Assembly: GCA_001574975.1 (NCBI GenBank)
Contig: KQ965814.1
Coordinates: 158,827 to 222,826, forward strand
Reading direction: 5' to 3'
DNA: 64,000 nt
DNA from: Gonapodya prolifera JEL478
Taxonomy: Eukaryota > Monoblepharomycota > Monoblepharidomycetes > Monoblepharidales > Gonapodyaceae
The notes under the pieces are model-generated. The model had not been told where the DNA came from. It made no database searches and saw only the letters and a list, made by a program, of their open reading frames with translations. Shown here one piece after another: positions 26,601 to 58,900 of this stretch. The position numbers and the translations under genes were made by a program. Numbering within the stretch: position 1 is the first letter of the stretch; each line of letters opens with the position of its first letter.

Positions 26601-29533
26601 ACAATGTTTTCACGAACAGTCGCGTTCTGGAACAGGTCACATCCAAGTCTCAGTTCTCAGGCCCACCAGATAGAACCATTTTCGCAATCGACACTCACCT
26701 GCACCCACGCCTGCTGCGCACCATACGCCAACGACGCCGCATTGATCTCGACCGTCCCCGACGTCTTGCCCATTTCTCCAATGATGGCGTTCAAAAGGGA
26801 GCTCTTGCCCGATCCCACAGCGCCACAGACAAACACGAGCGATCCTTTGGGGATTGCCACGTTGATGTTTCGGAGGAGCGCGCGCGATTTGGTCTTGACG
26901 TTGGTTTCATCCACACTGGCGGGGGCATCGGTGGCGACCGCAGCGTCCTTGATAGGCACAGGAACGGGCGCGAGTTTTGCATGTGACGGCTCTTTCGCTC
27001 CGTGAGGCGTCTTTTTGGCGCCCTTGGTGTCTTTGGCGACCGAGACCGCTTCCTCCCACTTGAAATTCCCATTTGTGATCTTCACCACCCATTCCGATTT
27101 GATATCCGTCTCCGCTCGCTGCTCCTGGTGCTCAGAATTCCCATCGTCATCGTCCGCTTGCAGCTCGTCCGCGAGTAGCAGGGTCTCCAATCGCTTGAGC
27201 GCCACGATGGCGTCGGAGACCATGGTGATCTGTAACGGGTACATCTGCAGGGGCATGCGCACGACGTTGAAGAGCGCGAGGCTGGAGAAGACCACGCCGG
27301 GTGTTAGTTGGTTACCGAGGGCGGTGTAGATAACGAATCTGCAGGACGAGAGAGCGAAGGTGGGTGAGAAGTGGACGTCGTGTGAGTCGCCGAGCAAACA
27401 CAGTCCAAAAGAAACCGCACTCGCAACTTACGTTAAAATAGCCGCAAACACGGGCTGGATCTGCATCACGCCCGTCATGAAACTTCGGCTTGCCACAATC
27501 TTGCGCACATTGACGAGCTCCGTCCTTCGCAGCTCCTCGATCATGCCCAGGATGGCGTCTTCCCATCCGTTGAATTTGATCACGCGGATCCCCGACAGGG
27601 CTTCTTGAATGACTCGGATGCGTTGGTCCGTGATGGCGGAGGCGATTTTGCGGATTCCCATTAAGTGACGGATGACGACCGCTGCAGGGGTGGAGGGGGG
27701 CGGAAGAGACATGGTTAGGTGTGGTTGGGAGAGCGCAGGGGTATGTGCGGACGTACATTGGAGCAGCAACGGAACCAAGAGAACGAAAAACCCAGCGAGG
27801 GCTTTTGAGTCCGGGAAGGAGAAGCGCGTGGAAAGGTCAGCCACGATTCCTCCGTCAGAACCGACCCAGCGCCACACCACTCACCGCTGACGCCCAAATT
27901 CATAATCAACAGCCCCATACAAACGCAAATAATCGTCGGGCTCGCCCACATCATGTGCAGCTGCGGGGACACGAAGTCGAGCCGGGCCGTGTCGGTCGAC
28001 ATCATGTTGACCGTGCGTCCTCCCGAAAAGTCCTGGCGCGCGGCTTGCGAGAGGATGAGGCATTTGCGGTATACCGACGCGACCACGGCCGTGCGCAGGC
28101 CGAACCCGACTCGGACCGAGTTGTAGAAGTATTGGTGTTGGAAGATGGAGGTGAGGATCTGGTGGGGAGTAAGGGAGGTCGAGGGCATTGGGGTTGGTGG
28201 TTGGGTGGGTGTGTGGCGGGATGGCGGGGCGGGGCGAAAGGGTCGTTGCGGGTATGCGAGGCAAGGTAAAAAAGGGGGTAAAGAGACCGAATGAAAGATC
28301 GTACCGAGATCAAAATCAAGACCCCCCCACGCACCTGCAACGCGAACATGGCCAGCGCCAACAAGTACCCCGTCTTCCCCGTACCGTCCGACGAACCGGA
28401 CTTGGTGAGCCAGTTCACGAAGGCTTGTAGCACTAGCGGTTGGGTGACGTTTGATGTGCTGTGAAGGAGGGGGGGTGCGGCGGTGGTGAAGGGTTAAGGA
28501 GGGTCAGAGAGGTGAGGAAGCCGGCCCAGTGCGCAGTGCATAGTCCACACCCACTCTGAAACGAGTCGGTAGAGTCCACCGAGGACCCAGTCGATACCAA
28601 ACGTTCTGAAACGTAGAAAACGGGACGATGTGTGTAATGATGTGAAGGCAAGGAAAACGCCTGAGCACACACACCTGATCAACGCCCGTCGCAGCGACGG
28701 AGTTTTCCGCCCCTTCTGAATGGGAGCTGGTGCACTGGTCTTCTCCCCAGACGCAACCGCGGCCTTCTTGCTCGCGCGGTGGATGTCGAGCTCCTTTTGC
28801 CATTCCTTGGCGAAACGGTTCGTGATTGCGTCGACCTGGGGTGACGGAAGCACAAACGGTTGAAGTTGAAGGTGGATGTAAGATGTGAGATGTGGAATGT
28901 GTAAAACCAATCGCATCAGGCCTCGTCTTCGCACCGTTGTGCCTTTGACAAACCAGCAACAGTAAATCAAAAGATTCCAATGCCGCTCCGCGTGGTGTAT
29001 GCGCCTCGGACGGAATACACACTCTGCGCCTCGCGGCACTTATTCCTTGATAGACGCTCCGCGATGAATAACTCTGCTCGCTCGATGCACACTCCACGGT
29101 GCATTGGCCTCCCGGGGACCATGCGCTCTGCGAAAGTAGTCCGCTCTGGGAGGTATTCGCCTCGGTCGGCGCTATCGCGCTTAGGCCTCGGGTTCTTGCT
29201 CTGCGAAACAGTCCTCGGTCAGCGCATTGCGGCGCTTTAGGCTCGGGGGCTCGCTGCGCTCACTCCACTCGGTTCTCAACCCACCGTCTGGTAATGTGGC
29301 ACGTCATACAAATCGCCCTCCGCCAGGGGCCTTCTGTACCCCAACAGCAGCAGCGAGTTGAGCCAGTGGAACGTCACTTTCGACAGAATGTTTGCCTTTG
29401 GCTCTGGCGTCGGGTTCGGTTTGGCCTTGGATTCGCCTGCGTCCTTGCCGTCTCCATCTGGATTCACAAAGTGCTTGAGGTCTTTTTCCAGCAGGATCTT
29501 TGTCTCGTGCTTCTCGTGCGCGCGATCCGCCAT
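23657..29533 (-). CDS. ABCC/MRP-type multidrug resistance-associated ABC transporter
   Basis: Full-size exporter of the ABCC (MRP/Ycf1-like) family, which moves conjugates and drugs across plasma or vacuolar membranes. The N-terminus ([12 protein letters not shown]..., then [19 protein letters not shown]) starts at the family's linker region, so TMD0 is absent. Exons between about 28.8 and 27.2 kb encode TMD1. NBD1 (27.1-25.9 kb) has Walker [16 protein letters not shown], signature [13 protein letters not shown] and Walker [12 protein letters not shown]; the Asp after Walker B is the usual degenerate residue of MRPs. TMD2 follows ([40 protein letters not shown]). NBD2 (24.6-23.7 kb) has [33 protein letters not shown], Walker B VVVLDEAT and H-loop IAHR. 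Intron 1 (28836-29284) carries a dispersed GC-rich repeat. Starts head-to-head with the M20 peptidase gene. Confidence 0.92.
28980..29275 (-). repeat. Introner-like repeat copy 1 (ABC transporter intron 1)
   Basis: Read on the minus strand (the host gene's sense), it contains the core 'CCCGAGGCCTAAGCGCGATA' then 'GCGCCGACCGAGGCGAATA', preceded by a second core 'CCCGAGCCTAAAGCGCCGCA' with 'TGCGCTGACCGAGG'. It continues with several 'GCGGAGCG' and 'GAGGCGAATAC'-like units. It starts about 35 nt inside the 5' splice site. Confidence 0.75.

Positions 29534-58900: not shown

Follow-up and report, generated by a model that had tools for sequence, protein, structure and literature searches.

Modular hairpin arrays in the nuclear genome of Gonapodya prolifera appear to invade pre-existing introns. 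They lie in sense orientation, as a rule no more than a few tens of nucleotides from the 5′ splice site, and would be removed with the intron; the copies would be made onto an exposed non-template strand. The probability of this reading is estimated at about 0.6. At the level of sequence it draws on the placement of the family, its sense orientation, its proximity to the donor, the order of its modules, the array-free introns of gene duplicates and the differences in modules between duplicates.

Arrays of the window and their modules

The window, i.e., the whole 64,000-nt stretch of DNA under analysis, holds six related copies, as an earlier sequence-only reading had described; its coordinates proved right within about 20 nt for most of them. 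The arrays and two of their core modules are as follows.

28980..29275, minus strand: hairpin array in the first intron (28836-29284) of an ABC transporter gene (BLAST family match; gene model with the array masked; Pfam ABC_membrane in the gene)
30520..30785, plus strand: hairpin array in the first intron (30510-30819) of an M20 peptidase (CPS1-like) gene (BLAST; masked gene model; Pfam Peptidase_M20 match across the exon junction)
41145..41459, plus strand: hairpin array in the second intron (41132-41664) of a methyltransferase gene (BLAST; masked gene model; Pfam Methyltransf_12/23 across the junction)
41205..41235, plus strand: core hairpin module CCTAAGCGCC-GCTA-GGCGCTGACCGAG (from the sequence)
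52155..52260, plus strand: short array of a head module and one GCCGGAGGC-type module, with no core, in a putative intron (likely acceptor at about 52281 downstream; donor not found)
52680..52812, plus strand: array behind the donor at 52631 of a membrane-protein exon (BLAST; donor by eye; acceptor not found)
52722..52754, plus strand: core hairpin module with the compensatory stem change AGCACC/GGTGCT (from the sequence)
56215..56512, plus strand: array in the FANCI gene, in an intron at 56186-56537 (both splice sites and the frame read by eye; Pfam match to FANCI_S1 downstream)

Once the arrays were masked, the gene model assigned three of the six copies to sense introns and gave no gene at the other three. 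It called the DNA around 56186-56537 and around the donor at 52631 intergenic, and both places were read by eye. Five of the copies lie in sense orientation behind a donor. The coreless copy at 52155 has only a likely acceptor side, no donor having been found. This copy is preceded by AT-rich repetitive DNA.

The AT-rich repetitive stretch itself occupies positions 47900-52140 and 62780-63830 of the window, with units about 304 nt apart, and adjoins the donor-less array. It includes inverted copies (51631-51794 with 62780-62943, 92%) and fragments that by eye resemble protein kinases. Elsewhere in the window, a gene model on the minus strand (42708-45917) has a product resembling, by eye, a family 18 glycosidase (chitinase).

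The arrays are modular and polar. From 5′ to 3′ they show head hairpins, followed by core and GCCGGAGGC-type hairpins that often alternate; in 45 of 49 cases the first core comes after head modules. Among 225 perfect hairpins in 52 arrays, 139 have GNA or GNNA loops. GNA loops are stable. The loop types differ by strand: 111 of 168 triloops are GNA and one is of the complementary-strand type TNC, while 28 of 57 tetraloops are GNNA and one is TNNC, copies of one module not being independent in either count. Predicted folding, however, turned out not to be special. ViennaRNA energies are little below those of shuffled sequences and no better in sense than in antisense (z of -0.56 and -0.70; the sense strand was better in 29 of 52), so that a simple causal role of an orientation-specific RNA fold was rejected.

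A compensatory change between AGCGCC/GGCGCT and AGCACC/GGTGCT, pointed out previously, is indeed present in the sequence, and the core stems of the family include the variants AGCGC/GCGCT, AGCAC/GTGCT, GGCAC/GTGCC and AGTGC/GCACT. The statistics are clear in one of three loop classes. Covariation was counted over distinct sequences of the length classes 13, 14 and 16 only, which hold 78 of the 87 cores found. Changes on both sides of the stem numbered 8 against 3.0 expected in the 13-nt class (a value reached by 5 of 5000 shuffles), 4 against 2.3 in the 14-nt class (702 of 5000) and 3 against 1.6 in the 16-nt class (939 of 5000). Compensatory changes can also arise by template switching in near-palindromes, without selection.

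The family in the genome and its place in introns

A genome-wide pattern search, as proposed by the sequence-only reading, revealed a large family. The core pattern, with its loop left free, has 123 matches in the 47.6-Mb genome and its reversed control none. The second module has 184 matches, some places being counted twice owing to a variable gap, and the head module has 135 with at most 3 mismatches; both controls gave 0. The sequence GTGAGT followed by the head module within 34 nt occurs 20 times, the reversed control again giving 0, and reversed family queries had no matches in 264 kb (the window plus 200 kb of another contig). Genome-wide counts of short motifs were too noisy to use (sense 263 vs. 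control 223; antisense 190 vs. control 128). The number of copies was estimated at about 1,300 per genome, with a range of 420-3,040, from five sense-intron hits in the 200 kb, i.e., the family would comprise in the order of a thousand copies in the nuclear genome.

The core pattern was absent from viral contigs and from the bacterial and archaeal genome contigs searched. Rfam gave no match at gathering score in the window, and in 20 loci it gave three matches at E values of 0.97-4.1, which are at chance level and all far below the cut-offs; no known structured RNA family was recognised in the sequences searched. A search for Helitron domains found none in this genome and likewise none in 14 control genomes, so it is uninformative. 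The copies sit in protein genes on many contigs, e.g., those of ZMAT2, Nop52 and FANCI homologues. At C1:569434-571000, cores with the same variant loop lie on opposite strands about 1.2 kb apart, which could reflect two neighbouring genes or an inverted duplication.

Placement was assessed with a home-made two-strand gene model trained on the window and the 200 kb of another contig, the same 264 kb being decoded. Arrays were masked before decoding because the unmasked model took parts of several of them for exon or intergenic DNA. Two samples of 20 loci were picked by hand among the matches listed, the first from the 123 core matches and the second with 10 loci each from the second and head modules; the sequences taken for L062 and L066 have a short downstream flank. 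The masked model placed 32 of the 40 arrays in sense introns, namely 15 of 20 in the first sample, with no gene at the remaining 5, and 17 of 20 in the second. Three more were assigned by longer flanks or duplicates: L043 showed no gene at first and a sense intron once its flanks were lengthened, and for L042 and L048 the comparison with duplicates showed an intron. Five were assigned by eye. A donor could be read in L045 and, in the second sample, in L052, L054 and L060; L036 lies probably in a first intron, about 300 nt behind the donor. Antisense and exonic arrays numbered 0 of 40 each.

Similar results were obtained in the 200 kb fetched regardless of arrays, where five of six family matches lie in sense introns (one of them short, 49 nt) and the sixth, a weak match of 44 nt, is intergenic. 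Placement in antisense or in intergenic DNA as frequent as in sense introns, which would have spoken against the sequence-only reading, was not seen in these samples. Its description of one hairpin-forming family, in introns, in sense and near the donor, holds in these wider samples.

Protein matches that run across the array-intron junctions support the view that the array sites are introns. Such matches were found for Peptidase_M20, a methyltransferase, Nop52 and PhyH; that of a UBR box crosses by only two or three residues. The array introns are presumably spliced out. In the ZMAT2 homologue (C85135) human ZMAT2 reads on at the position of the array, and the small exon modelled behind the array has no human counterpart; this exon and the modelled acceptor are therefore probably wrong. 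Two sense arrays include inverted blocks, of about 93 nt in L043 (757-849, with flanks) and 21 nt in L064. In L002, two adjacent introns of a single gene both contain a sense array (1472-1612 and 1878-1947).

Within the intron the arrays usually start close to the donor. In 56 array introns the shared sequence starts a median of 12 nt after the donor, within 30 nt in 90% and at 67 nt at most. Its start falls within the six letters of the donor, common to many genes anyway, in 16 of the 56, and on the first letter in 8 of these. For 24 of the 56 the donor used is not an intron start in the gene model, partly as a result of masking that extended over it. From the array end to the acceptor the median is 109 nt and the least distance 40 nt in the 32 introns with a modelled acceptor, the least being 44 nt without the doubtful acceptor of C85135; that of L042 is doubtful too, with an intron of 307 nt as modelled and 544 nt by its duplicate. 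The relative position in the leftover host space leans toward the donor (mean 0.18; KS p of about 1e-9, n = 30), a lean to which degraded array remnants at the distal end could contribute.

Array introns also tend to be early. Six of 8 are first introns, as compared to 49 of 223 others (p 0.003), and with seven more array introns ranked from 3-kb loci the count is 9 of 15 (p 0.003); this bias comes from small numbers and a home-made gene model, with an implausible 4-nt first exon in one of the eight models. Among the eight 3-kb loci, L003 and L069 have no usable model, and L070 was counted with its array intron not the first. At nucleotides 7-30 of the intron G makes up 47% in array introns vs. 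27% in array-free introns and 32% in array-free introns of at least 150 nt. GGGG is present in 25 of 56 array introns vs. 32 of 202 array-free ones.

Such a distribution could in principle result from random insertion followed by selection, if only sense, donor-near intronic copies survived, e.g., because folding helps the splicing of long introns. At least 40 nt before the acceptor are kept in 32 of 32 introns, as this explanation expects, since the branch point and the acceptor must stay intact, and the strand difference of the hairpin loops agrees with it as well. However, intergenic DNA accounts for roughly half the sample (124,606 of 244,008 bases, gaps and masked arrays excluded) and should tolerate insertion, yet the one intergenic match in 200 kb is the weak one mentioned above, and predicted RNA folding is not special. 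Random insertion with selection is considered unlikely.

The second alternative is a SINE-like retroposon lying antisense to the gene, with a fixed 3′ end toward the donor, truncation at its 5′ end, and the G-tract as its C-rich tail. In many copies the end toward the donor indeed consists of head modules from a defined set, the rest being variable, and a G-run is commoner before arrays. This scheme leaves confinement to introns and sense-only placement unexplained, Rfam offered chance-level matches at best in the loci searched, and GGGG is missing from nucleotides 7-45 in 31 of the 56 array introns. A SINE-like origin appears quite improbable.

Introns with and without arrays in gene duplicates

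Genome searches were run with the exon ends at 14 array introns, a hand-picked set out of 44 array loci. Close duplicates were found for 6 of the 14, giving 8 loci. The position of the intron is kept in all 8 duplicate loci and the array is absent in 5 of them. The transporter intron on C76 measures 512 nt with its array, and its counterparts on C119 and C182 measure 69 and 67 nt, respectively, without one. Likewise, an array intron of 293 nt on C101 corresponds to array-free introns of 63 nt on C41 and 75 nt on C115. These four short introns (L073, L074, L077, L078) gave no match in the family BLAST. The fifth case is longer: the array intron of L042 has 544 nt, and its duplicate L072 on C23 is an intron of 500 nt without an array, with a single 19-nt match.

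Where both duplicates carry arrays, L041/L071 and L046/L075 differ by insertion or loss of modules, and the arrays of L058/L076 align. A further C22/C23 pair has the intron start in common and array details not. Two array genes of C22 are duplicated on C23 (L005/L057, L042/L072), which suggests an old duplicated segment. For the peptidase gene no duplicate was found in the genome.

Same-position introns that lack the array in duplicates indicate that arrays enter introns already present and are altered one module at a time. Exon identities among the duplicates settled no ancestral state, so in single cases the array may have been lost instead of gained; the spread of arrays among unrelated genes nevertheless needs gain somewhere.

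These data bear directly on introners, the class to which the sequence-only reading had likened the family. Under that explanation the element inserts in exons, makes a new intron, and supplies or recruits splice sites. Many copies, confinement to introns, sense orientation and a start near the donor are what it would lead one to expect, and a shared stretch that begins inside the donor letters makes a contribution to the donor possible. As intron makers, however, the arrays fail where duplicates permit a comparison. Duplicates hold the same intron at 63-75 nt or at 500 nt without the array (5 of 8), and on the acceptor side at least 40 nt are unshared in 32 of 32 introns. For the array-free duplicates this excludes creation of the intron by the element, barring a traceless loss of the array. 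An introner origin of the array introns as a whole is considered distinctly improbable. Local growth of each array out of a simple seed, through slippage and template switching and with convergent similarity, would fit the variable number and order of modules, even between duplicates, but is very improbable, as a 32-nt head module recurs exactly (one position free) 16 times among the 135 head matches, on many contigs.

Possible mechanism and relation to known elements

The preferred reading, invasion of existing introns by hairpin arrays, may be put as a sequence of steps. Transcription near gene starts would expose the non-template strand in an R-loop or a similar structure. A strand-specific copying step would then place copies onto this strand; the copied form could be single-stranded DNA or derive from nascent RNA, with hairpins folding in the sense strand. 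Modules would multiply and be lost by template switching. Insertion into an exposed non-template strand would give confinement to introns, sense-only orientation, a donor-near site, a preference for early introns, a G-rich intron start and loop types of one strand. Neither a copying enzyme nor a target duplication was identified in the analysis, and the boundaries of the arrays vary strongly. A stricter form, in which the elements are parasites of transcription that insert only in the non-template strand bared behind an early 5′ splice site, is tentative and rather doubtful.

Introners and introner-like elements are high-copy intronic sequences of fungi and other eukaryotes that spread by copying (PMC9860276, PMC4457414), and target duplications or terminal inverted repeats are not common to all introner families (PMC9860276). 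The arrays resemble them in that many similar copies lie in introns of unrelated genes. The difference is that introners make the intron, whereas duplicates here show the same intron free of the array, and the copies share no acceptor-side sequence.

Closer in structure are the repetitive hairpin-forming and double-hairpin elements of mitochondria, described as short hairpins, also in tandem multiples, that keep their stems, vary in their loops and have been proposed to be mobile (PMC2800124, and Allomyces work as cited there). The present arrays likewise consist of hairpins in tandem whose stems are conserved and whose loops vary; those elements are mitochondrial, whereas the present ones are nuclear, confined to introns and sense-only. 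The arrays are best read as a nuclear, intron-confined counterpart of the mitochondrial hairpin elements.

The stwintrons of Hypoxylaceae, also fungal, are units of similar sequence nested in another intron at its 5′ splice site (PMC8469720). They are complete introns that interrupt a splicing signal, whereas the arrays leave the donor intact and are not known to splice alone. Bacterial REP/BIME sequences are short-hairpin families in variable arrays, whose movement is attributed to a single-strand transposase. They are alike in their variable hairpin arrays but are bacterial and mostly intergenic. Mini-hairpins of the d(GCGAAGC) type have GNA loops (PMC4686876), the loop type of most triloops counted here; they represent a chemical motif, not a mobile element.

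No description of the family was recognised among the open-licence papers listed on introners, chytrids, Gonapodya introns, hairpin repeats and strand-specific insertion. To our knowledge, such a bias in strand and position is found in no described nuclear repeat. The kind of element, a hairpin-array repeat, is known; what is new is the combination of nuclear confinement to introns, a single orientation and a donor-near site.

Two partial matches to the chitin synthase N-terminal domain, above the cut-off of that family, indicate a fungal genome. In a comparison of fungi, Gonapodya prolifera is reported to show the highest intron density (PMC8476143). Studies of mobile DNA and introns have concentrated on the origin of introns, and the present family points to the invasion and lengthening of introns that already exist. 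Separating intron gain from intron invasion bears on the explanation of intron-rich genomes. If insertion tracks exposed single strands, the strand and position of the copies would be a natural record of such sites in active genes.
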